Part shown: in pieces, positions 7,638 to 41,900 of the stretch
How positions within the stretch are numbered: position 1 is the first letter of the stretch
Layout of the letters: each line of letters begins with the position of its first letter
Assembly (NCBI GenBank): GCA_963971405.1
Contig: OZ020487.1
Coordinates: 20,197,371 to 20,261,370 of the forward strand
Length of the DNA: 64,000 nucleotides
Source of the DNA: Psococerastis gibbosa
Lineage: Eukaryota; Arthropoda; Insecta; Psocodea; Psocidae
Direction: 5' to 3'
Program-made: the position numbers and the translations under genes
Notes under the pieces: model-generated
What the model saw: the letters and a program-made list of their open reading frames with translations, nothing else
Told to the model about the DNA's origin: nothing
Databases searched by the model: none

Positions 7638-7691
7638 GTCGAATGAATTTTTTTTAGCTACATTTACGAAATAGCTATTTTTCTTATTCTT
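7638..7691 (+). repeat. Truncated 54-bp satellite monomer (deletion junction)
   Basis: The spacing between successive GTCGAATGAA landmarks drops to 54 bp here (7638 to 7692). The first part of a monomer runs to CATTTAC at 7661-7667 and then joins GAAATAGCTATTT, which normally lies about 110 bp further on. The usual middle of the monomer is missing. This is the only strongly out-of-register junction I found in the array. The two parental sequences share only a base or two (AC) at the breakpoint, which suggests end joining rather than homologous exchange. Confidence 0.9.
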
Positions 7692-7749
7692 GTCGAATGA
7701 ATTTTTTGTAGCTAAATTTACACCGACGAACACGCACGAGCAATTGCTC

Positions 7750-17807: not shown

Positions 17808-20800
17808 ATTCTTGTCGAATGAATTTTTTGTAGCTAAATTTACACCGACGAACACGCACGAGCAATTGCTCAATGTTAGGTACAATACAGTGAGCCAACA
17901 TAAGCAAAATTAAGACACCTATATCTTTTTAAGACCTTTAAAAAAAAAATTAACTAAATTGCTATTTTTCTTATTCTTGTCTTGTGAATTTTTAGTAGCT
18001 ACATTTACACGGATGAACACGCAGGAGCATTTGCCCAATGTTAGGTACAGTACAATGAGCCAAAATAAGCAAAATTAGGACACCTATATCTTATTAAGAC
18101 CTTAAAAAAAAGAAAATAACTAAATAGCTATTTTTCTGATTCCTGTCGAATGAATTTTTAGTAGCTACATTTACACGGATGAACACGCAGGAGCATTTGC
18201 TCAATGTTAGGTACATTACAATGAGCCAAAATTAGCAAAATTAGGACACCTATATCTTTTAAAGACCTTTAAAAAAATAAAATAAGTAAATAGCTATTTT
18301 TCTGATTCCTGTCGAATGAATTTTTTTTTAGCTACATTTACACCGATGAACACGCAGAAGCAACTGCTTAATGTTGAGTACTATACATTGAGCCAAAATA
18401 AGCAAAATTAAGACACCCATATCATTTCAAGACCTTTAAAAAAAAAAATAAGTAAATAGCTATTTTTCTTATTCTTGTCGAATGAATTTTTTTTAGCTAC
18501 AATTACACCGATGAACACGCAGAAGCAATTGGTCAATGTTAAGTACAATACATTGAGCCTAAATAACCGAAATTAAGACACCTATATCTTTTTAAGACCT
18601 TTAAAAAAAGAAAATAACGAAATAGCTATTTTTCTTATTCTTGTCGAATGAATTTTTTGTAGCTAAATTTACACCGACGAACACGCACGAGCAATTGCTC
18701 AATGTTAGGTACAATACAGTGAGCCAACATAAGCAAAATTAAGACACCTATATCTTTTTAAGACCTTTAAAAAAAAAAATTAACTAAATTGCTATTTTTC
18801 TTATTCTTGTCTTGTGAATTTTTAGTAGCTACATTTACACGGATGAACACGCAGGAGCATTTGCCCAATGTTAGGTACAGTACAATGAGCCAAAATAAGC
18901 AAAATTAGAACACCTATATCTTTTGAAGACCTTTAAAAAAATAAAATAAGTAAATAGCTATTTTTCTGATTCCTGTCGAATGAATTTTTTTTAGCTACAT
19001 TTACACCGATGAACACGCAGAAGCAACTGCTCAATGTTAAGTACAATGCAATGAGCCGAAATAAGCCAAATTAAGACACCCATACCATATCAAAACCTTT
19101 AAAAAAAATAAAATAAGTATATAGCTATTTTTGGTATTCTTGTCGAATGAATTTTTTTTAGCTACATTTACACCGATGAACACGCAGAAGCACTTGCTCA
19201 ATGTTAAGTACTATACATTGAGCCAAAATAAGCAAAATTAAGACACCCATATCATTTCAAGACCTTTAAAAAAATAAAATAAGTAAATAGCTATTTTTCT
19301 GATTCCTGTCGAATGAATTTTTTTTAGCTACATTTACACCGATGAACACGCAGAAGCAACTGCTCAATGTTTAATACAATACAATGAGCCAAAATAAGCA
19401 AAATTAAGACACCTATATCTTTTAAAGACCTTTAAAAAAATAAAATAAGTAAATGGCTATTTTTCTGATTCCTGTCGAATGAATTTTTTTTAGCTACATT
19501 TACACCTTTGAACACGCAAAGGCAACTGCTCAATGTTAAGAACAATACAATGAGCCAAAATAAGCAAAATTAAGACACCCATATCATTTCAAGACCTTTA
19601 AAAAAAAAAAATAAGTAAATAGCTATTTTTCTTATTCTTGTCGAATGAATTTTTTTTAGCTACAATTACACCGATGAACACGCAGGAGCAATTGCTTAAT
19701 GTTATGTACAATACAATGAGCCGAAGTAAGCAAAATATGACACCCATATCGTATCAAAACCTTTAAAAAAAATAAAATAAGTATATAGCTATTTTTGGTA
19801 TTCTTGTCGAATGAATTTTTTTTAGCTACATTTACACCGATGAACACGCAGAAGCAATTGGTCAATGTTAAGTACAATACATTGAGCCAAAATAAGAAAA
19901 ATTAAGACACCCATATCATTTCAAGACCTTTAAAAAAAAAATAAGTAAATAGCTATTTTTCTTATTCTTGTCGAATGAATTTTTTTTAGCTACAATTACA
20001 CCGATGAACACGCAGGAGCATTTACTCAATGTTAGGTACAATACAATGAGCCAACATAAGCAAAATTAAGACACCTATATCTTATTAAGACCTTATAAAA
20101 AAGAAAATAACTAAATAGCTATTTTTCTTATTCTTGTCGAATGAATTTATAGTAGCTACATTTACACGGATGAACACGCTGGAGCAATTGCTAAATGTAA
20201 GGTACAATACAGTGAGCCATAATAAGCAAAACTAGGACACCCATATCAATTCAAGACCTTTAAAAAAAATAAAATAAGTAAATAGCTATTTTTCTTATTC
20301 TTGTCGAGTGAATTTTTTTAGCTACATTTACACCGATGAACACGCAGGAGCAATTGCTCGATGTTAAGTACAATTTAATGAGCCAAAACGAGCAAAATTA
20401 AGACACCCATATCATATCAAGACCTTTAAAAAAATGAAATAAGTATGTAGCTATTTTTCTTATTCTTGTCGAATGAATTTTTAGTAGCTACATTTACACG
20501 GATGAACACGCAGGAGCATTTACTTAATGTTAGGTACAATACAATGAGCCAACATAAGCAAAATTAAGACACCTATATCTTATTAAGACCTTAAAAAAAG
20601 AAAATAACTAAATAGCTATTTTTCTTATTCTTGTCGAATGAATTTTTAGTAGCTACATTTACACGGATGAACACGCAGGAGCATTTGCTCAATGTTAGGT
20701 ACATTACAATGAGCCAAAATTAGCAAAATTAGGACACCTATATCTTTTAAAGACCTTTAAAAAAATAAAATAAGTAAATAGCTATTTTTCTGATTCCTGT

Positions 20801-23800
20801 CGAATGAATTTTTTTTTAGCTACATTTACACCGATGAACACGCAGAAGCAACTGCTTAATGTTGAGTACTATACAATGAGCCAAAATAAGCAAAATTAAG
20901 ACACCCATATCATTTCAAGACCTTTAAAAAAAAAAATAAGTAAATAGCTATTTTTCTTATTCTTGTCGAATGAATTTTTTTTAGCTACAATTACACCGAT
21001 GAACACGCAGAAGCAATTGGTCAATGTTAAGTACAATACATTGAGCCTAAATAACCGAAATTAAGACACCTATATCTTTTTAAGACCTTTAAAAAAAGAA
21101 AATAACGAAATAGCTATTTTTCTTATTCTTGTCGAATGAATTTTTTGTAGCTAAATTTACACCGACGAACACGCACGAGCAATTGCTCAATGTTAGGAAC
21201 AATACAGTGAGCCAACATAAGCAAAATTAAGACACCTATATCTTTTTAAGACCTTTAAAAAAAAAATTAACTAAATTGCTATTTTTCTTATTCTTGTCTT
21301 GTGAATTTTTAGTAGCTACATTTACACGGATGAACACGCAGGAGCATTTGCCCAATGTTAGGTACAGTACAATGAGCCAAAATAAGCAAAATTAGGACAC
21401 CTATATCTTATTAAGACCTTAAAAAAAAGAAAATAACTAAATAGCTATTTTTCTGATTCCTGTCGAATGAATTTTTAGTAGCTACATTTACACGGATGAA
21501 CACGCAGGAGCATTTGCTCAATGTTAGGTACATTACAATGAGCCAAAATTAGCAAAATTAGGACACCTATATCTTTTAAAGACCTTTAAAAAAATAAAAT
21601 AAGTAAATAGCTATTTTTCTGATTCCTGTCGAATGAATTTTTTTTTAGCTACATTTACACCGATGAACACGCAGAAGCAACTGCTTAATGTTGGGTACTA
21701 TACAATGAGCCAAAATAAGCAAAATTAAGACACCCATATCATTTCAAGACCTTTAAAAAAAAAATAAGTAAATAGCTATTTTTCTTATTCTTGTCGAATG
21801 AATTTTTTTTAGCTACAATTACACCGATGAACACGCAGAAGCAATTGGTCAATGTTAAGTACAATACATTGAGCCTAAATAACCGAAATTAAGACACCTA
21901 TATCTTTTTAAGACCTTTAAAAAAAGAAAATAACGAAATAGCTATTTTTCTTATTCTTGTCGAATGAATTTTTTGTAGCTAAATTTACACCGACGAACAC
22001 GCACGAGCAATTGCTCAATGTTAGGTACAATACAGTGAGCCAACATAAGCAAAATTAAGACACCTATATCTTTTTAAGACCTTTAAAAAAAAAATTAACT
22101 AAATTGCTATTTTTCTTATTCTTGTCTTGTGAATTTTTAGTAGCTACATTTACACGGATGAACACGCAGGAGCATTTGCCCAATGTTAGGTACAGTACAA
22201 TGAGCCAAAATAAGCAAAATTAGAACACCTATATCTTTTGAAGACCTTTAAAAAAATAAAATAAGTAAATAGCAATTTTTCTGATTCCTGTCGAATGAAT
22301 TTTTTTTAGCTACATTTACACCGATGAACACGCAGAAGCAACTGCTCAATGTTAAGTACAATGCAATGAGCCGAAATAAGCCAAATTAAGACACCCATAC
22401 CATATCAAAACCTTTAAAAAAAATAAAATAAGTATATAGCTATTTTTGGTATTCTTGTCGAATGAATTTTTTTTAGCTACATTTACACCGATGAACACGC
22501 AGAAGCACTTGCTCAATGTTAAGTACTATACATTGAGCCAAAATAAGCAAAATTAAGACACCCATATCATTTCAAGACCTTTAAAAAAATAAAATAAGTA
22601 AATAGCTATTTTTCTGATTCCTGTCGAATGAATTTTTTTTAGCTACATTTACACCGATGAACACGCAGAAGCAACTGCTCAATGTTTAATACAATACAAT
22701 GAGCCAAAATAAGCAAAATTAAGACACCTATATCTTTTAAAGACCTTTAAAAAAATAAAATAAGTAAATAGCTATTTTTCTGATTCCTGTCGAATGAATT
22801 TTTTTTAGCTACATTTACACCTTTGAACACGCAAAGGCAACTGCTCAATGTTAAGAACAATACAATGAGCCAAAATAAGCAAAATTAAGACACCCATATC
22901 ATTTCAAGACCTTTAAAAAAAAAAAATAAGTAAATAGCTATTTTTCTTATTCTTGTCGAATGAATTTTTTTTAGCTACAATTACACCGATGAACACGCAG
23001 GAGCAATTGCTTAATGTTATGTACAATACAATGAGCCGAAGTAAGCAAAATATGACACCCATATCGTATCAAAACCTTTAAAAAAAATAAAATAAGTATA
23101 TAGCTATTTTTGGTATTCTTGTCGAATGAATTTTTTTTAGCTACATTTACACCGATGAACACGCAGAAGCAATTGGTCAATGTTAAGTACAATACATTGA
23201 GCCAAAATAAGAAAAATTAAGACACCCATATCATTTCAAGACCTTTAAAAAAAAAATAAGTAAATAGCTATTTTTCTTATTCTTGTCGAATGAATTTTTT
23301 TTAGCTACAATTACACCGATGAACACGCAGGAGCATTTACTCAATGTTAGGTACAATACAATGAGCCAACATAAGCAAAATTAAGACACCTATATCTTAT
23401 TAAGACCTTAAAAAAAAGAAAATAACTAAATAGCTATTTTTCTTATTCTTGTCGAATGAATTTTTAGTAGCTACATTTACACGGATGAACACGCAGGAGC
23501 ATTTGCTCAATGTTAGGTACATTACAATGAGCAGAAATTAGCAAAATTAGGACACCTATATCTTTTAAAGACCTTTAAAAAAATAAAATAAGTAAATAGC
23601 TATTTTTCTGATTCCTGTCGAATGAATTTTTTTTTAGCTACATTTACACCGATGAACACGCAGAAGCAACTGCTCAATGTTGAGTACTATACAATGAGCC
23701 AAAATAAGCAAAATTAAGACACCCATGTCATTTCAAGACCTTTAAAAAAAAAAATAAGTAAATAGCTATTTTTCTTATTCTTGTCGAATGAATTTTTTTT

Positions 23801-26800
23801 AGCTACAATTACACCGATGAACACGCAGAAGCAATTGGTCAATGTTAAGTACAATACATTGAGCCTAAATAACCAAAATTACGACACCTATATCTTTTTA
23901 AGACCTTTAAAAAAAGAAAATAACGAAATAGCTATTTTTCTTATTCTTGTCGAATGAATTTTTTGTAGCTAAATTTACACCGACGAACACGCACGAGCAA
24001 TTGCTCAATGTTAGGTACAATACAGTGAGCCAACATAAGCAAAATTAAGACACCTATATCTTTTTAAGACCTTTAAAAAAAAAAATTAACTAAATTGCTA
24101 TTTTTCTTATTCATGTCTTGTGAATTTTTAGTAGCTACATTTACACGGATGAACACGCAGGAGCATTTGCCCAATGTTAGGTACAGTACAATGAGCCAAA
24201 ATAAGCAAAATTAGGACACCTATATCTTTTAAAGACCTTTAAAAAAATAAAATAAGTAAATAGCTATTTTTCTGATTCCTGTCGAATGAATTTTTTTTAG
24301 CTACATTTACACCGATGAACACGCAGAAGCAACTGCTCAATGTTAAGTACAATACAATGAGCCGAAATAAGCCAAATTAAGACACCCATATCATTTCAAG
24401 ACCTTTAAAAAAAAAAATAAGTAAATAGCTATTTTTCTTATTCTTGTCGAATGATTTTTTTTTAGCTACAATTACACCGATGAACACGCAGAAGCAATTG
24501 GTCAATGTTAAGTACAATACATTGAGCCTAAATAACCGAAATTAAGACACCTATATCTTTTTAAGACCTTTAAAAAAAGAAAATAACGAAATAGCTATTT
24601 TTCTTATTCTTGTCGAATGAATTTTTTGTAGCTAAATTTACACCGACGAACACGCACGAGCAATTGCTCAATGTTAGGAACAATACAGTGAGCCAACATA
24701 AGCAAAATTAAGACACCTATATCTTTTTAAGACCTTTAAAAAAAAAATTAACTAAATTGCTATTTTTCTTATTCTTGTCTTGTGAATTTTTAGTAGCTAC
24801 ATTTACACGGATGAACACGCAGGAGCATTTGCCCAATGTTAGGTACAGTACAATGAGCCAAAATAAGCAAAATTAGGACACCTATATCTTATTAAGACCT
24901 TAAAAAAAAGAAAATAACTAAATAGCTATTTTTCTGATTCCTGTCGAATGAATTTTTAGTAGCTACATTTACACGGATGAACACGCAGGAGCATTTGCTC
25001 AATGTTAGGTACATTACAATGAGCCAAAATTAGCAAAATTAGGACACCTATATCTTTTAAAGACCTTTAAAAAAATAAAATAAGTAAATAGCTATTTTTC
25101 TGATTCCTGTCGAATGAATTTTTTTTTAGCTACATTTACACCGATGAACACGCAGAAGCAACTGCTTAATGTTGAGTACTATACAATGAGCCAAAATAAG
25201 CAAAATTAAGACACCCATATCATTTCAAGACCTTTAAAAAAAAAATAAGTAAATAGCTATTTTTCTTATTCTTGTCGAATGAATTTTTTTTAGCTACAAT
25301 TACACCGATGAACACGCAGAAGCAATTGGTCAATGTTAAGTACAATACATTGAGCCTAAATAACCGAAATTAAGACACCTATATCTTTTTAAGACCTTTA
25401 AAAAAAGAAAATAACGAAATAGCTATTTTTCTTATTCTTGTCGAATGAATTTTTTGTAGCTAAATTTACACCGACGAACACGCACGAGCAATTGCTCAAT
25501 GTTAGGTACAATACAGTGAGCCAACATAAGCAAAATTAAGACACCTATATCTTTTTAAGACCTTTAAAAAAAAAATTAACTAAATTGCTATTTTTCTTAT
25601 TCTTGTCTTGTGAATTTTTAGTAGCTACATTTACACGGATGAACACGCAGGAGCATTTGCCCAATGTTAGGTACAGTACAATGAGCCAAAATAAGCAAAA
25701 TTAGAACACCTATATCTTTTGAAGACCTTTAAAAAAATAAAATAAGTAAATAGCAATTTTTCTGATTCCTGTCGAATGAATTTTTTTTAGCTACATTTAC
25801 ACCGATGAACACGCAGAAGCAACTGCTCAATGTTAAGTACAATGCAATGAGCCGAAATAAGCCAAATTAAGACACCCATACCATATCAAAACCTTTAAAA
25901 AAAATAAAATAAGTATATAGCTATTTTTGGTATTCTTGTCGAATGAATTTTTTTTAGCTACATTTACACCGATGAACACGCAGAAGCACTTGCTCAATGT
26001 TAAGTACTATACATTGAGCCAAAATAAGCAAAATTAAGACACCCATATCATTTCAAGACCTTTAAAAAAATAAAATAAGTAAATAGCTATTTTTCTGATT
26101 CCTGTCGAATGAATTTTTTTTAGCTACATTTACACCGATGAACACGCAGAGGCAACTGCTCAATGTTTAATACAATACAATGAGCCAAAATAAGCAAAAT
26201 TAAGACACCTATATCTTTTAAAGACCTTTAAAAAAATAAAATAAGTAAATAGCTATTTTTCTGATTCCTGTCGAATGAATTTTTTTTAGCTACATTTACA
26301 CCTTTGAACACGCAAAGGCAACTGCTCAATGTTAAGAACAATACAATGAGCCAAAATAAGCAAAATTAAGACACCCATATCATTTCAAGACCTTTAAAAA
26401 AAAAAAATAAGTAAATAGCTATTTTTCTTATTCTTGTCGAATGAATTTTTTTTAGCTACAATTACACCGATGAACACGCAGGAGCAATTGCTTAATGTTA
26501 TGTACAATACAATGAGCCGAAGTAAGCAAAATATGACACCCATATCGTATCAAAACCTTTAAAAAAAATAAAATAAGTATATAGCTATTTTTGGTATTCT
26601 TGTCGAATGAATTTTTTTTAGCTACATTTACACCGATGAACACGCAGAAGCAATTGGTCAATGTTAAGTACAATACATTGAGCCAAAATAAGAAAAATTA
26701 AGACACCCATATCATTTCAAGACCTTTAAAAAAAAAATAAGTAAATAGCTATTTTTCTTATTCTTGTCGAATGAATTTTTTTTAGCTACAATTACACCGA

Positions 26801-27132
26801 TGAACACGCAGGAGCATTTACTCAATGTTAGGTACAATACAATGAGCCAACATAAGCAAAATTAAGACACCTATATCTTATTAAGACCTTAAAAAAAAGA
26901 AAATAACTAAATAGCTATTTTTCTTATTCTTGTCGAATGAATTTTTAGTAGCTACATTTACACGGATGAACACGCAGGAGCATTTGCTCAATGTTAGGTA
27001 CATTACAATGAGCAGAAATTAGCAAAATTAGGACACCTATATCTTTTAAAGACCTTTAAAAAAATAAAATAAGTAAATAGCTATTTTTCTGATTCCTGTC
27101 GAATGAATTTTTTTTTAGCTACATTTACACCG
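17808..27132 (+). repeat. 20/21-monomer HOR, three tandem copies of 3.3-3.5 kb
   Basis: The landmark GTCTTGTGAATTTTTAG occurs in pairs five monomers apart: 17979/18809, 21296/22124 and 24777/25605. Pair-to-pair spacing is 3317 and 3481 bp. A second landmark set (the monomer with GCCGAAGTAAGC) recurs at about 19656, 22971 and 26452, with spacing 3315 and 3481 bp. The copies therefore differ by exactly one monomer (20 versus 21). The region between about 23.4 and 24.6 kb carries additional monomers, including a TTCATGTCTTGTG form at 24115. The third copy is cut by the transposon. Confidence 0.82.
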
Positions 27133-27140
27133 ATGAACAC
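27133..27140. repeat. Target-site duplication, left copy (ATGAACAC)
   Basis: The 8 bp ATGAACAC directly precede the element and are repeated directly after it at 30103-30110. They fit the nTnnnnAn preference known for hAT target sites. The uninterrupted satellite carries this 8-mer once per monomer, as at 23652-23659, so the duplication comes from the insertion. Confidence 0.95.
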
Positions 27141-27153
27141 TAGGGTGGAGCGA
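27141..27153 (+). repeat. Terminal inverted repeat, left (13 bp perfect)
   Basis: TAGGGTGGAGCGA is the exact reverse complement of 30090-30102. Similarity continues in patches inward: TATTTAATAGTTA at 27177-27189 mirrors 30042-30054, and GAGGTGCCCCAGGG at 27255-27268 mirrors 29963-29976. The full degenerate inverted repeat therefore extends about 150 bp. Confidence 0.94.
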
Positions 27154-27254
27154 AAAACCTTTATTTTTTATTTTTTTATTTAATAGTTACCAAACGGTGC
27201 GATACCTTACCCGAAGACCACACGTCAATTTTTTTATCATTCAAAAAATTTTAA

Positions 27255-27285
27255 GAGGTGCCCCAGGGTGCCCAAAGTTTTGAAA
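27255..27285 (+). promoter_or_regulatory. Subterminal inverted repeat, left arm (candidate transposase-binding site)
   Basis: GAGGTGCCCCAGGG (27255-27268) followed by an AAAGTTTTGAA box (27274-27284) lies 114 bp from the left tip. The same two boxes occur in inverted orientation near the right tip. hAT elements typically have short subterminal motifs bound by transposase. That this is such a site is an inference from position and conservation. Confidence 0.6.
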
Positions 27286-27444
27286 TTTCTTCAAAAATGG
27301 GCCTTTCTATGAAGTCGAAAAAAATATTCTGGCGCCATTTTTTTGCATACTTAGGTTGGCACTATGTGCAGAACGAATTGTTCTACCTGTACAAGCAAGC
27401 GGTGATCGTCCATATTTGATCATGAAATTAATATTAATTTTAAG

Positions 27445-27604
27445 GTAAGCCTTATTTTTTATTTTAATTTGCATGCATACGGCATATGGTGCGTTAATAG
27501 ATATATTTGTGTAATACAGCTTTATATAATATAGTTAGGCATAATATACCTTAATTACATTTTTTATAATTCAATTATGAAATTCGGGCTAATTTTTGTT
27601 GCAG
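27445..27604 (+). other. Putative 160-nt intron in the transposase 5' UTR
   Basis: The donor TTTTAAG|GTAAGC at 27444/27445 and the acceptor TTTTTGTTGCAG|GC ending at 27604 both match eukaryotic splice consensus well, with a T-rich tract before the acceptor. Splicing would join 27444 to 27605, 15 nt upstream of the transposase ATG. The alternative is that this stretch holds the promoter instead: TTTATATAATATAG at about 27531-27544 could be a TATA box with transcription starting shortly before the ATG. The sequence alone does not decide between them. Confidence 0.5.
27531..27544 (+). promoter_or_regulatory. Possible TATA-like element upstream of the transposase
   Basis: TTTATATAATATAG lies about 76-89 bp before the ATG at 27620. 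In this AT-rich stretch such a motif can occur by chance, and it falls inside the proposed intron, so the two readings compete. Confidence 0.25.
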
Positions 27605-27619
27605 GCTGTTTAACCTAAA

Positions 27620-29308
27620 ATGAACTCAAGGACACGTCAGCAAATTAATTGCCCAGTTTTTGGGTTTCCATGTGAATTGAACCCACTGCAGTTGCCAACA
27701 TATTTTGATGCCATGAAGGGTTATTTGTGGATCAAATATGAACTTAAACCGAAAACGTCATCAAAAGAGCCAACAATTGGGGAAATAGCAGTGAATTTGG
27801 CGGAAAAGATAGAAAAGATTTGGAATAACGCATCTCTGCCCACGGTAACACGCACACGAGTTTTGCAGTTGATTCGTACCTATCACAACAATTATCGGAA
27901 CTTATTAAAGCCGTATAAAACTAGAAAAACCAATAATAATTACTTGAAACGCCTGAATAAATTTACGGACGGTTCACGCAAACTTTTTGATATTTCCTAT
28001 TGCAAATGTGTGTGTTTTGAAAGTTGTTTGTGCCCTAAAGCTTTAAAAGTCCCTAAACCTGAGTGGACGTTTCTTATTGACCAAAGAACAGCCCGAAACA
28101 TGATTATTGGCACAGTAGACATGTCATCCGTCAGATTAGAGAGCCGAAAGAGAAAAAGGTCAACAAGGAAGAGATTAGAATATTCTGAAGAAGAGCTGGA
28201 GTTTACAGGTTCTCCAATCTCATCTCCACTACCATTTCATTCGACTGACGAAGAAAATAATGCAGATTCGTGGGATAATTTCACAGTAAAAAAGCAACGC
28301 TACACAGAAGAAGATAATATTCCTATTCCTAAAACATTGTCATTGCCAAAAGATTTGAGACTTACTATGCCTACGCTCGCAATTACCTGTGACCGTACTG
28401 GCGTTTCCGACAGAACTGCCGCTATGTTAGCATCGGCTGTCTTGCAGGACTTTGGAATTATAACGCCAGGCGATCAGAGCCTAGTGGTTGATCGGTCAAA
28501 AGTTCGACGAGAAAGAGCCAAGATGCGTAGTGACTTGGCTGATGCCAATGGTTCTAATCATATGATAACTGGCTTGTATTTTGATGGTAGAAAAGATAAA
28601 ACTCTTGTTAATGAGAAAATTGAAGGGAAATTCCATAGAAAGACTGTTGCCGAGGAACATTATTCTCTTATTGGTGAACCTGGAGGAATTTATATTGGCC
28701 ATGTTTCTGTAGAATCAAGCAAGGCCGCCAAAGTTGTGTCAAATATTGTTGAATGTCTTCCAGAAAAGACGTGTGGTATGACTTCACTGAAAGCCGTTGG
28801 GTGCGATGGTACCGTAATAAATACAGGCTGCAAAAACGGTGTCATTCGTGGATTGGAGCAAACACTCGGGAAATCATTGCAATGGCTCATTTGCATGCTT
28901 CATGCAAATGAACTTCCGTTGAGGCACTTGCTGCAGCATCTTGACGGCGTCACTACTGGGCCAGAGTGTTTTTCTGGGCCCATTGGGAAGGCACTGCTAT
29001 TTTGCGAAACTCTTCCTGTTGTGGCATTTTTGCCTATTGCGACAACAATGCCAATCATTGACAAAAAAGACCTGAGCACGGACCAAGCCTATCTTCATGA
29101 AATAATTGAAGCTGTGCGCTCAGGTTCTTGCCCCAGCAGTTTGGCTAACAAAAACCCTGGCAGAATGAACCACTCACGGTGGCTTACGACAGCAAATAGA
29201 ATTTTGCGCCTCTACATTGCGGCAATATCGCCATGCCCTAACCTATTCATTTTGGCTGAATTCATAATGAGGGTCTATGGACCCATGTGGTTTACAATAA
29301 AATGTTAG
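27620..29308 (+). CDS. Transposase N-terminal and catalytic-core fragment, 562 aa
   Basis: Domains seen in order are as follows. Residues 1-125 are a helical N-terminal region rich in conserved-looking hydrophobics (IGEIAVNLAEKIEKIW and VLQLIRTYHNNYRNLL). Residues 128-138 hold a Cys cluster, CKCVCFESCLC, possibly metal-binding. Residues 171-187 hold a strongly basic stretch (SRKRKRSTRKR), a likely nuclear localisation signal. An acidic, Ser-rich linker covers about 188-235. An RNase H-like core follows, with YFDGRKDKTL (D322), VGCDGTVINTG (D396), CMLHANEL (C425, H428) and NHSRWLTTANR (R520, W521). The fragment ends at TAG right after MWFTIKC and lacks the C-terminal glutamate. The N-terminus shows no clear BED or THAP finger, which is unusual for hAT and P proteins respectively. 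Proteins of this organisation are common as uncharacterised transposon-derived entries in arthropods (recollection, not a search). Confidence 0.85.
   Translation: MNSRTRQQINCPVFGFPCELNPLQLPTYFDAMKGYLWIKYELKPKTSSKEPTIGEIAVNLAEKIEKIWNNASLPTVTRTRVLQLIRTYHNNYRNLLKPYKTRKTNNNYLKRLNKFTDGSRKLFDISYCKCVCFESCLCPKALKVPKPEWTFLIDQRTARNMIIGTVDMSSVRLESRKRKRSTRKRLEYSEEELEFTGSPISSPLPFHSTDEENNADSWDNFTVKKQRYTEEDNIPIPKTLSLPKDLRLTMPTLAITCDRTGVSDRTAAMLASAVLQDFGIITPGDQSLVVDRSKVRRERAKMRSDLADANGSNHMITGLYFDGRKDKTLVNEKIEGKFHRKTVAEEHYSLIGEPGGIYIGHVSVESSKAAKVVSNIVECLPEKTCGMTSLKAVGCDGTVINTGCKNGVIRGLEQTLGKSLQWLICMLHANELPLRHLLQHLDGVTTGPECFSGPIGKALLFCETLPVVAFLPIATTMPIIDKKDLSTDQAYLHEIIEAVRSGSCPSSLANKNPGRMNHSRWLTTANRILRLYIAAISPCPNLFILAEFIMRVYGPMWFTIKC
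29306..29308 (+). other. In-frame TAG stop disrupting the transposase
   Basis: TAG falls between the codons for C562 and P564 in an otherwise open frame. Single-base origins from AAG, CAG, GAG, TGG, TTG, TCG, TAT or TAC are possible. It is the only nonsense codon in about 750 codons, which implies a young or recently inactivated copy. Confidence 0.9.
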
Positions 29309-29338
29309 CCAAAATGCACAGAAGGTGCCAAACATCTG

Positions 29339-29869
29339 ATGGAGACAATCGTTCGAAGTCGCTATTTAAGTGACGATCTAAAAAAAATTGTTGACCCTGT
29401 AATACAACGAAATGGATATTTTGGGCACCCCGAAAATATTTTGCTTGCAATGCTGGTCGATGACAGAAAAGCTATACGGGAGTTGGCTTACCGGAGAATT
29501 ATTAAAGCACGTACTAACCAAAGGAGCAGGAAAAGAATCAGAGAATTTAAACAACCGAAATTCAATTTTGGTTCTACTGACTACATTAATATGGTATATT
29601 GGCGAGACACTACAGTTACAGAGCCACCACTTTTGAGCAATTGGACGACGGATAAATTACTTCAATCAGTGAATATGAAGGAGAAAGGATTCAAAAAAAT
29701 TCTCCAACTTCCATGTCATACGCAGGCTGTGGAACGATGCGTTAAACTAGTTACTGAAGCATCAGAATCGGTAGTTGGAGAGTCAGCAAGAGATGGCTTC
29801 ATCCGCAGCCGAATTATCTCTCGTCAAAAAATGCCATCCTTTGAAACAAAGAAGGAATACAGTGTCTGA
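29339..29869 (+). CDS. Transposase C-terminal fragment, 176 aa
   Basis: This frame is in register with the upstream fragment. Ten codons separate the TAG from the ATG at 29339, and they are open, so this ATG is probably an internal methionine rather than a true start. The fragment holds the likely last part of the catalytic fold: a helical stretch VDDRKAIRELAYRRIIKA, a basic stretch (SRKRIREFKQPK), and LPCHTQAVERCVKLVTEAS, where the glutamate at fragment residue 132 (full-frame codon about 705) is the best candidate for the final acidic residue. It ends RDGFIRSRIISRQK followed by a short tail. Alone it would not be a functional transposase. An antisense open frame and a +1-frame open stretch (29412-29636) overlap and are shadows. 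Confidence 0.72.
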   Translation: METIVRSRYLSDDLKKIVDPVIQRNGYFGHPENILLAMLVDDRKAIRELAYRRIIKARTNQRSRKRIREFKQPKFNFGSTDYINMVYWRDTTVTEPPLLSNWTTDKLLQSVNMKEKGFKKILQLPCHTQAVERCVKLVTEASESVVGESARDGFIRSRIISRQKMPSFETKKEYSV

Positions 29870-29895
29870 AAAATTTAAGGTTGTTTTTTTACAAA

Positions 29896-29901
29896 AATAA
29901 A
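29896..29901 (+). terminator. Polyadenylation signal AATAAA
   Basis: AATAAA lies 27 bp after the transposase TGA, inside the element. The GT/T-rich stretch TTAAGGTTGTTTTTTT just before it and the A-rich DNA around it make the exact cleavage site unclear. It is the first canonical hexamer after the frame and fits the transcription unit. AATAAAA-type strings further on (about 30065) are alternatives. Confidence 0.5.
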
Positions 29902-29945
29902 AAAAATATGAAAAAACATAGCTAAATTTTTAAAAAAATGACATA

Positions 29946-29976
29946 ATTCAAAACTTTGAGACCCCTGGGGCACCTC
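29946..29976 (-). promoter_or_regulatory. Subterminal inverted repeat, right arm
   Basis: On the minus strand this reads GAGGTGCCCCAGGG (29976 down to 29963), followed by CTCAAAGTTTTGAAT. It is the mirror of the left subterminal block, 126 bp from the right tip. It also lies in the 3' untranslated part of the transposase transcript. Confidence 0.6.
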
Positions 29977-30089
29977 AAAAATTTTTTTTTGAGACTCGAT
30001 ATTTTGCGAGCGTGGTTTTAGCAGCATTTGGCACGTTATTTTAACTATTAAATACAATTTAAAAAATAAAAGTTTTTTCCCTATACCTA

Positions 30090-30102
30090 TCGCTCCACCC
30101 TA
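30090..30102 (-). repeat. Terminal inverted repeat, right (13 bp perfect)
   Basis: TCGCTCCACCCTA is the inverted partner of the left end. It would be a transposase cleavage end. Confidence 0.94.
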
Positions 30103-30110
30103 ATGAACAC
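30103..30110. repeat. Target-site duplication, right copy (ATGAACAC)
   Basis: This is the second copy of the 8-bp target duplication. It is followed by GCAGAAGCAACTGCTC, the expected continuation of the split monomer (compare 23660 onward). Confidence 0.95.
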
Positions 30111-33074
30111 GCAGAAGCAACTGCTCAATGTTGAGTACTATACAATGAGCCAAAATAAGCAAAATTAAGACACCCATGTCATTTCAAGACCTTTAAAAAA
30201 AAAAATAAGTAAATAGCTATTTTTCTTATTCTTGTCGAATGAATTTTTTTTAGCTACAATTACACCGATGAACACGCAGAAGCAATTGGTCAATGTTAAG
30301 TACAATACATTGAGCCTAAATAACCAAAATTACGACACCTATATCTTTTTAAGACCTTTAAAAAAAGAAAATAACGAAATAGCTATTTTTCTTATTCTTG
30401 TCGAATGAATTTTTTGTAGCTAAATTTACACCGACGAACACGCACGAGCAATTGCTCAATGTTAGGTACAATACAGTGAGCCAACATAAGCAAAATTAAG
30501 ACACCTATATCTTTTTAAGACCTTTAAAAAAAAAAATTAACTAAATTGCTATTTTTCTTATTCATGTCTTGTGAATTTTTAGTAGCTACATTTACACGGA
30601 TGAACACGCAGGAGCATTTGCCCAATGTTAGGTACAGTACAATGAGCCAAAATAAGCAAAATTAGGACACCTATATCTTTTAAAGACCTTTAAAAAAATA
30701 AAATAAGTAAATAGCTATTTTTCTGATTCCTGTCGAATGAATTTTTTTTAGCTACATTTACACCGATGAACACGCAGAAGCAACTGCTCAATGTTAAGTA
30801 CAATACAATGAGCCGAAATAAGCCAAATTAAGACACCCATACCATATCAAAACCTTTAAAAAAAATAAAATAAGTATATAGCTATTTTTGGTATTCTTGT
30901 CGAATGAATTTTTTTTAGCTACATTTACACCGATGAACACGCAGAAGCACTTGCTCAATGTTAAGTACAATACAATGAGCCAACATAAGCAAAATTAAGA
31001 CACCTATATCTTATTAAGACCTTAAAAAAAAGAAAATAACTAAATAGCTATTTTTCTTATTCTTGTCGAATGAATTTTTAGTAGCTACATTTACACGGAT
31101 GAACACGCAGGAGCATTTGCTCAATGTTAGGTACATTACAATGAGCAGAAATTAGCAAAATTAGGACACCTATATCTTTTAAAGACCTTTAAAAAAATAA
31201 AATAAGTAAATAGCTATTTTTCTGATTCCTGTCGAATGAATTTTTTTTTAGCTACATTTACACCGATGAACACGCAGAAGCAACTGCTCAATGTTGAGTA
31301 CTATACAATGAGCCAAAATAAGCAAAATTAAGACACCCATGTCATTTCAAGACCATTAAAAAAAAAAATAAGTAAATAGCTATTTTTCTTATTCTTGTCG
31401 AATGAATTTTTTTTAGCTACAATTACACCGATGAACACGCAGAAGCAATTGGTCAATGTTAAGTACAATACATTGAGCCTAAATAACCAAAATTACGACA
31501 CCTATATCTTTTTAAGACCTTTAAAAAAAGAAAATAACGAAATAACTATTTTTCTTATTCTTGTCGAATGAATTTTTTGTAGCTAAATTTACACCGACGA
31601 ACACGCACGAGCAATTGCTCAATGTTAGGTACAATACAGTGAGCCAACATAAGCAAAATTAAGACACCTATATCTTTTTAAGACCTTTAAAAAAAAAAAT
31701 TAACTAAATTGCTATTTTTCTTATTCATGTCTTGTGAATTTTTAGTAGCTACATTTACACGGATGAACACGCAGGAGCATTTGCCCAATGTTAGGTACAG
31801 TACAATGAGCCAAAATAAGCAAAATTAGGACACCTATATCTTTTAAAGACCTTTAAAAAAATAAAATAAGTAAATAGCTATTTTTCTGATTCCTGTCGAA
31901 TGAATTTTTTTTAGCTACAATTACACCGATGAACACGCAGAAGCAACTGCTCAATGTTAAGTACAATACAATGAGCCGAAATAAGCCAAATTAAGACACC
32001 CATACCATATCAAAACCTTTAAAAAAAATAAAATAAGTATATAGCTATTTTTGGTATTCTTGTCGAATGAATTTTTTTTAGCTACATTTACACCGATGAA
32101 CACGCAGAAGCACTTGCTCAATGTTAAGTACTATACATTGAGCCAAAATAAGCAAAATTAAGACACCCATATCATTTCAAGACCTTTAAAAAAATAAAAT
32201 AAGTAAATAGCTATTTTTCTGATTCCTGTCGAATGAATTTTTTTTAGCTACATTTACACCGATGAACACGCAGAAGCAACTGCTCAATGTTTAATACAAT
32301 ACAATGAGCCAAAATAAACAAAATTAAGACACCTATATCTTTTAAAGACCTTTAAAAAAATAAAATAAGTAAATAGCTATTTTTCTGATTCCTGTCGAAT
32401 GAATTTTTTTTAGCTACATTTACACCTTTGAACACGCAAAAGCAACTGCTCAATGTTAAGAACAATACAATGAGCCAAAATAAGCAAAATTAAGACACCC
32501 ATATCATTTCAAGACCTTTAAAAAAAAAAAATAAGTAAATAGCTTTTTTTCTTATTCTTGTCGAATGAATTTTTTTTAGCTACAATTACACCGATGAACA
32601 CGCAGGAGCAATTGCTTAATGTTATGTACAATACAATGAGCCGAAGTAAGCAAAATATGACACCCATATCATATCAAAACCTTTAAAAAAAATAAAATAA
32701 GTATATAGCTATTTTTGGTATTCTTGTCGAATGAATTTTATTTAGCTACATTTACACCGATGAACACGCAGAAGCAATTGGTCAATGTTAAGTACAATAC
32801 ATTGAGCCAAAATAAGAAAAATTAAGACACCCATATCATTTCAAGACCTTTAAAAAAAAAATAAGTAAATAGCTATTTTTCTTATTCTTGTCGAATGAAT
32901 TTTTTTTAGCTACAATTACACAGATGAACACGCAGGAGCAATTGCTCAATGTTATGTACAATACAATGAGCCGAAATAAGGAAAATTATGACACCCATAT
33001 CATATCAAAACCTTTAAAAAAAATAAAATAAGTATATAGCTATTTTTCTTATTCTTGTCGAATGAATTTTTTTT

Positions 33075-36000
33075 AGCTCCACTTACACCGATGAACACGC
33101 AGGAGCAATTGGTCAATGTTAAGTACAATACAGTGAGCCTAAATAACCAAAATTAAGACACCTATATCTTTTTAAGACCTTTAAAAAAAGGAAAATAATG
33201 AAATAGCTATTTTTCTTATTCTTGTCGAATAAATTTTATGTAGCTACATTTGCACCGATGAACACGCTGGAGCAATTGCTAAATGTAAGGTACAATACAG
33301 TGAGCCAAAATAAGCAAAACTAGGACACCCATATCTATTCAAGACCTTTAAAAAAAATAAAATAAGTATGTAGCTATTTTTCTTATTCTTGTCGAATGAA
33401 TTTTTAGTAGCTACATTTACACGGATGAACACGCAGGAGCATTTACTCAATGTTAGGTACAATACAGTGAGCCAACATAAGCAAAATTAAGACACCTATA
33501 TCTTATTAAGATAAAAGAAAATAAGTAAATAGCTATTTTTCTGATTCCTGTCGAATGAATTTTTTTTAGCTACATTTACACCGATGAACACGTTGAAGCA
33601 ACAGCTTAATGTTAAGTACAATACAATGAGCCAAAATAAGCAAAATTAAGACACCCATATCATTTCAAGACCTTTAAAAAAAATAAAATAAGGAAATATC
33701 TATTTTTCTTATTCTTGTCGAATGAATTTTTTTTAGCTACATTTACACCGATGAACATGCAGGAGCAATTGCTCAATGTTAGTGCAATACAATGAGGCAA
33801 AATAAGCAAAATTAAGACACCCATATCATTTCAAGACCTTTAAAAAAAATAAAATAAGGAAATATCTATTTTTCTTATTCTTGTCGAATGAATTTTTTTT
33901 AGCTACATTTACACCTATGAACTCGCAGGAGCAATTGCTCAATCGTAAGCACAATACGGTGAGCCAAAATAAGCAAAATAAAGACTCCCATATCATAACA
34001 AGACCTTTAAAAAAAATAAAATAAGTAAATAGCTATTTTTCTGATTCCTGTCGAATGAATTTTTTGAGCTACATTTACACCGATGAACACGCAGAAGCAA
34101 CTGCTCAATGTTTAGTACAATACAATGAGCCAAAATAAGCAAAATTAAGACACCTATATCTTTTAAGGACCTTTAAAAAAATAAAATAAGTAAGTAGCTA
34201 TTTTTCTGATTCCTGTCGAATGAATTTTTTTTAGCTACATTTACACCTTTGAACACGCAAAAGCAACTGCTCAATGTTACGAACAATACAATGAGCACAA
34301 ATAAGCAAAATTAAGACACCCATATCATTTCAAGACCTTTAAAAAAAAAAATAAGTAAATAGCTATTTTTCTTATTCTTGTCGAATGAATTTTTCTTAGC
34401 TACAATTACACCGATGAACACGCAGGAGCAATTGCTTAATGTTAGGTACAATACAATGAGCCAAAATAAGCAAAATTAAGACACCTATATCATTTAAAGA
34501 CCTTTAAAAAAATAAAATAAGTAAATAGCTATTTTTCTGATTCCTGTCGAATGAATTTTTTTTAGCTACATTTACACCTTTGAACACGCAGAAGCAACTG
34601 CTCAATGTTAAGAACAATACAGTGAGCCAAAATAAGCAAAATTAAGACACCCATATCATTTCAAGACCTTTAAAAAAAAAAAATAAGTAAATAGCTATTT
34701 TTCTTATTCTTGTCGAATGAATTTTTTTTAGCTACAATTACACCGATGAACACGCAGGAGCAATTGCTTAATGTTAAGTACAATACAATGAGCCGAAATA
34801 AGCAAAATTATGACACCCATATCATATCAAAACCTTTAAAAAAAATAAAATAAGTATATAGCTATTTTTGGTATTCTTGTCGAATGAATTTTTTTTAGCT
34901 ACATTTACACCGATGAACACGCAGAAGCAATTGGTCAATGTTAAGTACAATACATTGAGCCAAAATAAGAAAAATTAAGACACCCATATCATTTCAAGAC
35001 CTTTAAAAAAAAAATAAGTAAATAGCTATTTTTCTTATTCTTGTCGAATGAATTTTTTTTAGCTACAATTACACCGATGAACACGCAGGAGCAATTGCTC
35101 AATGTTATGTACAATACAATGAGCCGAAATAAGCAAAATTAAGACACCCATATCATTTCAAGACCTTTAAAAAAAATAAAATAAGGAAATATCTATTTTT
35201 CTTATTCTTGTCGAATGAATTTTTTTTAGCTACATTTACACCTATGAACTCGCAGGAGCAACTGCTCAATCTTAACCACAATAAGGTGAGCCAAAATAAG
35301 CAAAATAAAGACTCCCATGTCATATCAAGACCTTTAAAAAAAATAAAATAAGTAAATAGCTATTTTTCTGATTCCTGTCGAATGAATTTTTTTTAGCTAC
35401 ATTTACACCGATGAACACGCAGAAGCAATTGGTCAATGTTTAGTACAATACAATGAGCCAAAATAAGCAAAATTAAGACCGCTATATCTTTTAAAGACCT
35501 TTAAAAAAATAAAATAAGTAAATAGCTATTTTTCTGATTCCTGTCGAATGAATTTTTTTTAGCTACATTTACACCGATGAACACGCAGAAGCAACTGCTC
35601 AATGTTAAGTACAATGCAATGAGCCGAAATAAGCCAAATTAAGACACCCATACCATATCAAAACCTTTAAAAAAAATAAAATAAGTATATAGCTATTTTT
35701 GGTATTCTTGTCGAATGAATTTTTTTTAGCTACATTTACACCGATGAACACGCAGAAGCACTTGCTCAATGTTAAGTACTATACATTGAGCCAAAATAAG
35801 CAAAATTAAGACACCCATATCATTTCAAGACCTTTAAAAAAATAAAATAAGTAAATAGCTATTTTTCTGATTCCTGTCGAATGAATTTTTTTTAGCTACA
35901 TTTACACCGATGAACACGCAGAAGCAACTGCTCAATGTTTAATACAATACAATGAGCCAAAATAAGCAAAATTAAGACACCTATATCTTTTAAAGACCTT

Positions 36001-38381
36001 TAAAAAAATAAAATAAGTAAATAGCTATTTTTCTGATTCCTGTCGAATGAATTTTTTTTAGCTACATTTACACCTTTGAACACGCAAAGGCAACTGCTCA
36101 ATGTTAAGAACAATACAATGAGCCAAAATAAGCAAAATTAAGACACCCATATCATTTCAAGACCTTTAAAAAAAAAAAATAAGTAAATAGCTATTTTTCT
36201 TATTCTTGTCGAATGAATTTTTTTTAGCTACAATTACACCGATGAACACGCAGGAGCAATTGCTTAATGTTATGTACAATACAATGAGCCGAAGTAAGCA
36301 AAATATGACACCCATATCGTATCAAAACCTTTAAAAAAAATAAAATAAGTATATAGCTATTTTTGGTATTCTTGTCGAATGAATTTTTTTTAGCTACATT
36401 TACACCGATGAACACGCAGAAGCAATTGGTCAATGTTAAGTACAATACATTGAGCCAAAATAAGAAAAATTAAGACACCCATATCATTTCAAGACCTTTA
36501 AAAAAAAAATAAGTAAATAGCTATTTTTCTTATTCTTGTCGAATGAATTTTTTTTAGCTACAATTACACCGATGAACACGCAGGAGCATTTACTCAATGT
36601 TAGGTACAATACAATGAGCCAACATAAGCAAAATTAAGACACCTATATCTTATTAAGACCTTAAAAAAAAGAAAATAACTAAATAGCTATTTTTCTTATT
36701 CTTGTCGAATGAATTTTTAGTAGCTACATTTACACGGATGAACACGCAGGAGCATTTGCTCAATGTTAGGTACATTACAATGAGCAGAAATAAGCAAAAT
36801 TAGGACACCTATATCTTTTAAAGACCTTTAAAAAAATAAAATAAGTAAATAGCTATTTTTCTGATTCCTGTCGAATGAATTTTTTTTTAGCTACATTTAC
36901 ACCGATGAACACGCAGAAGCAACTGCTCAATGTTGAGTACTATACAATGAGCCAAAATAAGCAAAATTAAGACACCCATGTCATTTCAAGACCTTTAAAA
37001 AAAAAAATAAGTAAATAGCTATTTTTCTTATTCTTGTCGAATGAATTTTTTTTAGCTACAATTACACCGATGAACACGCAGAAGCAATTGGTCAATGTTA
37101 AGTACAATACATTGAGCCTAAATAATCAAAATTACGACACCTATATCTTTTTAAGACCTTTAAAAAAAGAAAATAACGAAATAACTATTTTTCTTATTCT
37201 TGTCGAATGAATTTTTTGTAGCTAAATTTACACCGACGAACACGCACGAGCAATTGCTCAATGTTAGGTACAATACAGTGAGCCAACATAAGCAAAATTA
37301 AGACACCTATATCTTTTTAAGACCTTTAAAAAAAAAAATTAACTAAATTGCTATTTTTCTTATTCATGTCTTGTGAATTTTTAGTAGCTACATTTACACG
37401 GATGAACACGCAGGAGCATTTGCCCAATGTTAGGTACAGTACAATGAGCCAAAATAAGCAAAATTAGGACACCTATATCTTTTAAAGACCTTTAAAAAAA
37501 TAAAATAAGTAAATAGCTATTTTTCTGATTCCTGTCGAATGAATTTTTTTTAGCTACATTTACACCGATGAACACGCAGAAGCAACTGCTCAATGTTAAG
37601 TACAATACAATGAGCCGAAATAAGCCAAATTAAGACACCCATACCATATCAAAACCTTTAAAAAAAATAAAATAAGTATATAGCTATTTTTGGTATTCTT
37701 GTCGAATGAATTTTTTTTAGCTACATTTACACCGATGAACACGCAGAAGCACTTGCTCAATGTTAAGTACTATACATTGAGCCAAAATAAGCAAAATTAA
37801 GACACCCATATCATTTCAAGACCTTTAAAAAAATAAAATAAGTAAATAGCTATTTTTCTGATTCCTGTCGAATGAATTTTTTTTAGCTACATTTACACCG
37901 ATGAACACGCAGGAGCAATTGCTTAATGTTATGTACAATACAATGAGCCGAAGTAAGCAAAATATGACACCCATATCATAACAAAACCTTTAAAAAAAAT
38001 AAAATAAGTATATAGCTATTTTTGGTATTCTTGTCGAATGAATTTTATTTAGCTACATTTACACCGATGAACACGCAGAAGCAATTGGTCAATGTTAAGT
38101 ACAATACATTGAGCCAAAATAAGAAAAATTAAGACACCCATATCATTTCAAGACCTTTAAAAAAAAAATAAGTAAATAGCTATTTTTCTTATTCTTGTCG
38201 AATGAATTTTTTTTAGCTACAATTACACAGATGAACACGCAGGAGCAATTGCTCAATGTTATGTACAATACAATGAGCCGAAATAAGGAAAATTATGACA
38301 CCCATATCATATCAAAACCTTTAAAAAAAATAAAATAAGTATATAGCTATTTTTCTTATTCTTGTCGAATGAATTTTTTTT
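33075..38381 (+). repeat. HOR super-unit of the right arm, 32-monomer version (5307 bp)
   Basis: This unit runs from one AGCTCCACTTAC monomer (33075) to the next (38382). It begins with that monomer, then the TTGCACCGATGAACACGCTGG monomer, the AGGAGCATTTACTCAATG monomer and the ACGTTGAAGC monomer. The GCCGAAGTAAGC monomer follows 2980 bp after the TTGCACCG monomer. The same order recurs from 51985 with an offset of 18910 bp. It is a shortened relative of the full cycle of about 6.8 kb (2980 + 3823 bp): the second part here is 2327 bp (14 monomers) instead of 23 monomers. Confidence 0.78.
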
Positions 38382-38999
38382 AGCTCCACTTACACCGATG
38401 AACACGCAGGAGCAATTGGTCAATGTTAAGTACAATACAGTGAGCCTAAATAACCAAAATTAAGACACCTATATCTTTTTAAGACCTTTAAAAAAAAGAA
38501 AATAATGAAATAGCTATTTTTCTTATTCTTGTCGAATAAATTTTATGTAGCTACATTTGCACCGATGAACACGCTGGAGCAATTGCTAAATGTAAGGTAC
38601 AATACAGTGAGCCAAAATAAGCAAAACTAGGACACCCATATCTATTCAAGACCTTTAAAAAAAATAAAATAAGTATGTAGCTATTTTTCTTATTCTTGTC
38701 GAATGAATTTTTAGTAGCTACATTTACACGGATGAACACGCAGGAGCATTTACTCAATGTTAGGTACAATACAGTGAGCCAACATAAGCAAAATTAAGAC
38801 ACCTATATCTTATTAAGATAAAAGAAAATAAGTAAATAGCTATTTTTCTGATTCCTGTCGAATGAATTTTTTTTAGCTACATTTACACCGATGAACACGT
38901 TGAAGCGACAGCTTAATGTTAAGTACAATACAATGAGCCAAAATAAGCAAAATTAAGACACCCATATCATTTCAAGACCTTTAAAAAAAATAAAATAAG

Positions 39000-41900
39000 G
39001 AAATATCTATTTTTCTTATTCTTGTCGAATGAATTTTTTTTAGCTACATTTACACCTATGAACTCGCAGGAGCAATTGCTCAATCTTAAGCACAATACGG
39101 TGAGCCCAAATAAGCAAAATAAAGACTCCCATATCATAACAAGACCTTTAAAAAAAATAAAATAAGTAAATAGCTATTTTTCTGATTCTTATCGAATGAA
39201 TTTTTTTTAGCTACATTTACACCGATGAACATGCAGGAGCAATTGCTCAATGTTAGTGCAATACAATGAGGCAAAATAAGCAAAATTAAGACACCCATAT
39301 CATTTCAAGACCTTTAAAAAAAATAAAATAAGGAAATATCTATTTTTCTTATTCTTGTCGAATGAATTTTTTTTAGCTACATTTACACCTATGAACTCGC
39401 AGGAGCAATTGCTCAATCGTAAGCACAATACGGTGAGCCAAAATAAGCAAAATAAAGACTCCCATATCATAACAAGACCTTTAAAAAAAATAAAATAAGT
39501 AAATAGCTATTTTTCTGATTCCTGTCGAATGAATTTTTTGAGCTACATTTACACCGATGAACACGCAGAAGCAACTGCTCAATGTTTAGTACAATACAAT
39601 GAGCCAAAATAAGCAAAATTAAGACACCTATATCTTATTAAGACCTTAAAAAAAAGAAAATAACTAAATAGCTATTTTTCTTATTCTTGTCGAATGAATT
39701 TTTAGTAGCTACATTTACACGGATGAACACGCAGGAGCATTTGCTCAATGTTAGGTACATTGCAATGAGGAGAAATTAGCAAAATTAGGACACCTATATC
39801 TTTTAAAGACCTTTAAAAAAATAAAATAAGTAAATAGCTATTTTTCTGATTCCTGTCGAATGAATTTTTTTTTAGCTACATTTACACCGATGAACACGCA
39901 GAAGCAACTGCTCAATGTTGAGTACTATACAATGAGCCAAAATAAGCAAAATTAAGACACCCATGTCATTTCAAGACCTTTAAAAAAAAAAATAAGTAAA
40001 TAGCTATTTTTCTTATTCTTGTCGAATGAATTTTTTTTAGCTACAATTACACCGATGAACACGCAGAAGCAATTGGTCAATGTTAAGTACAATACATTGA
40101 GCCTAAATAACCAAAATTACGACACCTATATCTTTTTAAGACCTTTAAAAAAAGAAAATAACGAAATAACTATTTTTCTTATTCTTGTCGAATGAATTTT
40201 TTGTAGCTAAATTTACACCGACGAACACGCACGAGCAATTGCTCAATGTTAGGTACAATACAGTGAGCCAACATAAGCAAAATTAAGACACCTATATCTT
40301 TTTAAGACCTTTAAAAAAAAAAATTAACTAAATTGCTATTTTTCTTATTCATGTCTTGTGAATTTTTAGTAGCTACATTTACACGGATGAACACGCAGGA
40401 GCATTTGCCCAATGTTAGGTACAGTACAATGAGCCAAAATAAGCAAAATTAGGACACCTATATCTTTTAAAGACCTTTAAAAAAATAAAATAAGTAAATA
40501 GCTATTTTTCTGATTCCTGTCGAATGAATTTTTTTTAGCTACATTTACACCGATGAACACGCAGAAGCAACTGCTCAATGTTAAGTACAATACAATGAGC
40601 CGAAATAAGCCAAATTAAGACACCCATACCATATCAAAACCTTTAAAAAAAATAAAATAAGTATATAGCTATTTTTGGTATTCTTGTCGAATGAATTTTT
40701 TTAGCTACATTTACACCGATGAACACGCAGAAGCACTTGCTCAATGTTAAGTACTATACATTGAGCCAAAATAAGCAAAATTAAGACACCCATATCATTT
40801 CAAGACCTTTAAAAAAATAAAATAAGTAAATAGCTATTTTTCTGATTCCTGTCGAATGAATTTTTTTTAGCTACATTTACACCGATGAACACGCAGAAGC
40901 AACTGCTCAATGTTTAATACAATACAATGAGCCAAAATAAACAAAATTAAGACACCTATATCTTTTAAAGACCTTTAAAAAAATAAAATAAGTAAATAGC
41001 TATTTTTCTGATTCCTGTCGAATGAATTTTTTTTAGCTACATTTACACCTTTGAACACGCAAAAGCAACTGCTCAATGTTAAGAACAATACATTGAGCCA
41101 AAATAAGCAAAATTAAGACACCCATATCATTTCAAGACCTTTAAAAAAAAAAAATAAGTAAATAGCTTTTTTTCTTATTCTTGTCGAATGAATTTTTTTT
41201 AGCTACAATTACACCGATGAACACGCAGGAGCAATTGCTTAATGTTATGTACAATACAATGAGCCGAAGTAAGCAAAATATGACACCCATATCATATCAA
41301 AACCTTTAAAAAAAATAAAATAAGTATATAGCTATTTTTGGTATTCTTGTCGAATGAATTTTATTTAGCTACATTTACACCGATGAACACGCAGAAGCAA
41401 TTGGTCAATGTTAAGTACAATACATTGAGCCAAAATAAGAAAAATTAAGACACCCATATCATTTCAAGACCTTTAAAAAAAATAAAATAAGGAAATATCT
41501 ATTTTTCTTATTCTTGTCGAATGAATTTTTTTTAGCTACATTTACACCTATGAACTCGCAGGAGCAATTGCTCAATCTTAAGCACAATACGGTGAGCCCA
41601 AATAAGCAAAATAAAGACTCCCATATCATAACAAGACCTTTAAAAAAAATAAAATAAGTAAATAGCTATTTTTCTGATTCTTATCGAATGAATTTTTTTT
41701 AGCTACATTTACACCGATGAACATGCAGGAGCAATTGCTCAATGTTAGTGCAATACAATGAGGCAAAATAAGCAAAATTAAGACACCCATATCATTTCAA
41801 GACCTTTAAAAAAAATAAAATAAGGAAATATCTATTTTTCTTATTCTTGTCGAATGAATTTTTTTTAGCTACATTTACACCTATGAACTCGCAGGAGCAA

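Follow-up and report, generated by a model that had tools for sequence, protein, structure and literature searches.

The DNA analysed here is a 64,000-nucleotide window of the Psococerastis gibbosa genome (C12:20197371-20261370 in an assembly of 409 Mb and 68 contigs), which consists of a satellite array with a ~166-bp monomer (1..64000) and of one transposon that the array flanks on both sides. The transposon (27141..30102, plus strand in coding orientation) is 2,962 bp long and splits a single satellite monomer, which is the only interruption in the window. It begins and ends with perfect 13-bp inverted tips (TAGGGTGGAGCGA / TCGCTCCACCCTA) and lies between two exact copies of an 8-bp target-site duplication (TSD), ATGAACAC, on the left (27133..27140) and on the right (30103..30110). 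Inside the tips, the terminal inverted repeats (TIRs) continue imperfectly to ~158 bp in the left repeat (27141..27298, plus strand) and to ~177 bp in the right repeat (29926..30102, minus strand), with 125 identities, 24 mismatches and 37 gap columns between them. The local score of this long inverted similarity was reached by none of 1000 dinucleotide shuffles, whether or not the 13-bp tips were included. The same two ends bound 14 further copies in the genome, each within one locus. These bounds, tips and duplication had been proposed in a sequence-only reading of the window, and they proved right to the base. The element is a young 3-kb cut-and-paste transposon with hAT-type ends, and essentially an ordinary mobile element.

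The satellite itself provides the empty target site. When the element and one TSD copy were removed, a wrap-around alignment divided the rejoined array of 61,030 bp into 369 segments. Of these, 367 are full monomers, with 87-98% identity to the consensus (the two end fragments are excluded from this range). At least seven other monomers have exactly the sequence of the rejoined insertion monomer. ATGAACAC is present at the place equivalent to the insertion in 286 of the 367 monomers, and CCGATGAACACGCAGAAGC starts 133 of them, including the rejoined monomer and those at 23649 and 31263, which the sequence-only reading had named as empty sites. Its argument from these sites is borne out more strongly than it was made, as direct extension across the rejoined site gave exact identities of 1,720, 1,648 and 1,249 bp to three empty-site paralogs at 23652..23659, 49011..49018 and 58637..58644, respectively. 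The blocks around these sites, each taken as far as the first pair of monomers that show over 6 differences, comprise 22 monomers with 11 substitutions in 3,647 bp, 28 monomers with 12 substitutions in 4,643 bp and 30 monomers with 12 substitutions in 4,974 bp. A further empty block is in register with the insertion block and differs from it by 4 substitutions in 2,158 bp, and shorter empty blocks differ by 9 substitutions in 2,158 bp, 3 in 996 bp and 2 in 997 bp. The low divergence of the empty blocks indicates that the insertion struck one block among several that had recently been duplicated or homogenised. Within the rejoined array, no excision scar was seen in the form of a ATGAACAC doublet with 0-8 bases between its halves.

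The window copy (L011) belongs to a family of 17 near-identical copies in its own genome. A tblastn search with the transposase, which took a heuristic first look and scored all 21 of its 21 candidates, gave 20 matches at 97-100% identity that correspond to 17 copies, three of them split in two pieces. The 200 bp at the 5' end of the element, used as a query, gave 19 matches, which resolve into the same 17 copies, as one copy was hit in two pieces and a weak match comes from the opposite end of a copy on C1. The protein search detected no relative below 97% identity, such as an older relic, in this genome, and no miniature derivative was detected with the 5' end, the 3' end not having been searched alone. 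The sequence-only reading was right that nothing else in the window is non-satellite, while its proposal that the element is a rare non-repetitive anchor fails on the 16 near-identical sisters. For the 15 copies in which a single locus holds both tips exactly (L011-L024 and L027), an alignment shows 0-7 substitutions per copy relative to the majority sequence, with a mean of 3.2 when indels are not counted. L014 and L015, which lie at different sites, do not differ at any of the 2,962 bp. A word of the satellite occurs exactly in the flanks of the window copy and is absent from the plus strand of the flanks of 13 other copies; a comparison of both strands likewise found no flank among the 14 other aligned copies that matches those of the window copy. 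The window copy is therefore the only one in this satellite among the copies whose flanks were compared, a set that does not include the copies on C21 and C14. The C14 copy (L032, C14:6922000-6931900), whose match ends at element base 2960, is interrupted at about element base 736-738 by ~5.3 kb that include a 200-N assembly gap. Two other sisters, at C3:11671997 and C3:11684929, lie ~10 kb apart in opposite orientation.

In 13 of the 15 two-tipped copies the flanking 8-mers are identical, and every one of these 13 targets follows a single rule, with T in the second and A in the seventh position (nTnnnnAn), for which the chance probability is about 1e-12 if A and T each have a frequency of 0.35. 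In L021, the two 8-mers differ by one mismatch and both keep T2 and A7. The pattern nTnnnnAn is the target rule given for Hermes (PMC10368747) and for hobo and Ac (PMC8961557), while the rule given for Buster elements is nnnTAnnn (PMC3517528); a central, Buster-like TA at positions 4-5 is found in three of the 13 targets (L016, L018 and L024). The tips of hAT elements are described as [T/C]A[A/G]NG (PMC6027215). The target pattern named in the sequence-only reading is confirmed in all 13 copies that have identical flanking 8-mers, and the hAT-type tips that it named are supported as well.

The element carries a transposase reading frame (27620..29869, plus strand) of 749 codons plus TGA, which in the window copy has one internal stop, a TAG at codon 563 (29306..29308). 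A run of 751 codons without a stop is the longest in 11 of the 15 aligned copies; the corresponding figure is 770 for L024, 748 for L022, 564 for the window copy and 467 for L027, and shuffling the element 500 times gave no run above 154 codons. Three substitutions are private to the window copy. Two of them are missense changes, and the third, a nonsense change, is the TAG, where the other 14 copies have a sense codon. A nonstandard genetic code was considered and rejected, since there is a single TAG and no other internal stop and the codon is sense in the 14 other copies. By eye, a series of candidate active-site residues can be assigned on the plus strand: as motifs only, a first catalytic Asp, D322 (28583..28585), and a second, D396 (28805..28807); a CxxH motif, C425-H428 (28892..28903), whose meaning is taken from PMC9587614; an RW pair, R520-W521 (29177..29182), which may be the counterpart of R318-W319 of Hermes (PMC6027215); and a catalytic Glu, E705 (29732..29734), downstream of the TAG. 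Because the TAG precedes the presumed catalytic E705, the window copy very likely lacks a full enzyme, and it is probably dead. A Cys-rich stretch, YCKCVCFESCLC, starts at residue 127 of the transposase. Upstream of the frame, a GTAAG and a CAG could delimit an intron in the 5' untranslated region (27445..27604, plus strand), a candidate inferred from these two signals.

The three private substitutions allow the insertion to be compared in age with the array around it. Three changes in 2,962 bp correspond to 0.10% (95% Poisson range roughly 0.02-0.30%), which is an upper estimate because some of the three may predate the insertion. In the three longest comparisons, the paralogous blocks are 0.24-0.30% apart, a distance that covers two lineages; with equal change on the two sides, each lineage would account for 0.12-0.15%. 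The private change of the element and the per-lineage divergence of the blocks are indistinguishable, so that the insertion would be about as old as the last large block exchanges and might serve as a clock for satellite turnover.

As a control for the protein searches, we used a true hAT element of 2,859 bp that is nested in the sister copy on C21 (L031:1573-4431), with an 8-bp TSD (ACGGTAAC) and an open stretch of 656 amino acids. The control matched the Pfam models zf-BED (5.6e-6) and the hAT dimerisation region (1.4e-4, above its cut-off) and, in the PDB, Hermes (1.1e-6). When the same genome was searched with the control protein (P0003), 67 of 136 candidates were scored and 67 matches were obtained. 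Of these, 33 are full-length and 100% identical; besides them there are a second family with ~39% identity and remnants, some of them with stops, that range from 23% to 44%. Since protein searches of this kind find diverged relatives of the control and none of the window family below 97%, the window family is a single young age class. The control element, which is younger than the sister copy that holds it, itself looks very recently active.

Several results weigh against assigning the element to hAT or against the simple account of its insertion. With the transposase as query, no Pfam model passed its cut-off; the best, hAT-like_RNase-H, scored 13.8 bits against a required 27 (E 0.069) with the whole protein, and although it gave E 0.01 with the N-terminal piece alone, this match lies in the wrong place (residues ~30-75). 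Neither the N-terminal BED finger (zf-BED) nor the hAT dimerisation region (PF05699) matched the transposase in Pfam at E values up to 10, a sequence search of the PDB gave no significant match, and BLASTP detected no similarity between the window protein and the control hAT (best E 1.2). The motif string D-D-CxxH-RW-E, which was selected post hoc and by eye after the sequence had been viewed, arises in 26 out of 5000 shuffles of the protein; without CxxH, the number rises to 1291. The imperfect inverted repeats of ~160-180 bp exceed the 10-25 bp usual for hAT elements (PMC3942097), a range into which the perfect 13 bp would fit. In addition, L017 (C2:49605096-49610342) is a complete element with unlike flanking 8-mers (GCACAATT / GAGCACAT), of which one end has perhaps been rearranged or altered, and the flanking 8-mers of the interrupted C21 copy are also unlike. 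Finally, the copies show no trace of selection on their protein. With each distinct change counted once, the 15 copies carry 2 synonymous, 23 non-synonymous and 1 nonsense change in the coding region and 19 changes outside it, and the synonymous share is below the expected 28%. Such a lack of a selection signal among copies is as expected after insertion.

Weighing these points, we regard it as well supported that the element works like a hAT. The transposase is, with good though not full confidence, a divergent hAT protein, and we call the element hAT-like, a name that rests on its ends and targets. The sequence-only reading had used the same name; it stands for the ends and targets, while the protein goes unrecognised by Pfam and the PDB though both recognise the control. 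That reading had also said that a protein whose best match lay in a superfamily other than hAT would count against it, and no such match was obtained, there being no significant hit of any kind.

One other reading places the element in a different DDE superfamily within the C/DxxH group, for example P, with a resemblance to hAT at its ends only. P elements also make 8-bp duplications, and Galileo, with its long TIRs, is similar to the element in this respect. TIRs beyond the usual hAT range given in PMC3942097 and a protein that is not recognised as hAT are in keeping with a P-type origin. However, no THAP, P-element or MULE model matched the window protein at E values up to 10, the tips and the T2/A7 rule are those given for hAT in the papers cited above, and the RW pair and an ER near the C-terminus fit hAT as well, so that we consider such an origin improbable. 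Slightly less probable still is a separate superfamily, not yet described, that shares hAT-type tips and the hAT target rule. It would account for the lack of a significant match in Pfam, the PDB, phages, plasmids and viral or prokaryote contigs and for the lack of any relative below 97% identity in the own genome, but the collections searched hold no eukaryotic repeat or proteome library, so that absence from them says little, and the ends, the target rule and the order of the motifs all fit hAT; proteins similar to the transposase are, moreover, presumably present in other arthropods and cnidarians. The whole transposase, two back-translated motif patterns and two conserved fragments brought up no relative outside the host among viral and prokaryote contigs, nor did tblastn against phages and plasmids. 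The satellite word is absent from the viral and prokaryote contig collections, Rfam gave nothing at the gathering score, and a literature search with short sequence words of the tips and the monomer returned nothing related, as judged by title. The tip words brought up a piggyBac-type MITE (PMC2872659), which was rejected as a relative.

That the insertion is an artefact of assembly has to be asked of any satellite array, as such arrays are hard to assemble, and here the element is multi-copy too. A false join is nevertheless not expected to create an exact 8-bp duplication between inverted tips; the same grammar recurs at other targets in 12 further copies, the satellite on either side reads on in register as one block, and the window copy carries three private substitutions of its own. 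We therefore give an assembly join next to no weight, and the insertion stands as the sequence-only reading had it, with TSD and inverted tips at its junctions and the same tips bounding other copies elsewhere.

The account that we prefer, and hold to be very probable, is a single insertion of a young cut-and-paste transposon, with ends of hAT type, into the ATGAACAC site of one satellite monomer. A full-length sister copy would have been the source of transposase, and the DDE enzyme would have excised the element and joined it to the target across an 8-bp stagger, the repair of which would have produced the target duplication. The element would then have stayed put, and duplication or homogenisation of the blocks around it would have gone on without it. 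The family is a very young burst, and its single young age class without relatives in the host suggests that it perhaps arrived recently in this genome; whether it entered recently from outside we judge to be an even question. A fuller history, in which a transposase lineage outside the described hAT groups, with tips and target rule of hAT type, long inverted repeats and no hAT domain that can be recognised, entered recently as one element, burst to 17 copies and left an insertion that dates the array turnover, seems unlikely as a whole.

Since the element is multi-copy, mapping should rely on the two satellite junctions and the three private variants, which are specific to the window copy. 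A dated single insertion among near-identical satellite blocks would allow homogenisation to be timed by an independent clock, with no outgroup needed. A family this young, with frames open in most copies and, it seems, no relatives in the host, suits a test of recent horizontal transfer, and its transposase would show how far hAT transposases drift before profile searches miss them. None of these uses requires a new mechanism.

The array shows further features of its own. Its higher-order structure is irregular, with 142 distinct sequences among the 367 monomers and 34 clusters at 97.5%; long runs of the same monomer types recur, and an identical aligned partner exists for 294 of the 367 monomers. 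The sole irregular monomer, of 220 bp (7503-7722), arose from an internal satellite duplication of ~54 bp. Two perfect 12-bp palindromes, GAGCAATTGCTC and AAATAGCTATTT, are present in each consensus monomer. Genome-wide, the 19-mer CCGATGAACACGCAGAAGC occurs 3123 times on the plus strand and 816 times on the minus strand; among the matches listed are positions on C12 (from 18.79 Mb), C2 (0.36-1.41 Mb), C3, C4, C5 and C9.

Compared with known systems, the element would share with the P superfamily, P and Galileo, membership of the C/DxxH group, and its tips and target rule differ from theirs. With the Ac group of hAT (Hermes, hobo and Ac), it has in common the 8-bp duplication and the nTnnnnAn target. 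Its tip, TAGGG at both ends, fits the hAT consensus [T/C]A[A/G]NG (PMC6027215) and is alike in all 15 copies, which were, however, picked by exact tips. Its length of 2,962 bp falls within the 2.5-5 kb usual for hAT elements (PMC3942097). The order of the candidate residues D, D, R, W and E in the window protein, as assigned by eye, would be the same as in the Ac group, while the distance from the second Asp to the Trp, 125 residues, is longer than the 71 and 97 of Hermes and Ac (PMC6027215). The nested control hAT shares with the element the 8-bp duplication, tips starting with TAG and the D-D-CxxH-RW-E order, although its one duplication (ACGGTAAC) misses T2, unlike the targets of the element. 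Its spacings (D1-D2 63, D2-C 19, D2-W 132, D2-E 380 and E-to-end 36) are near those of the window protein (74, 29, 125, 309 and 44, respectively).

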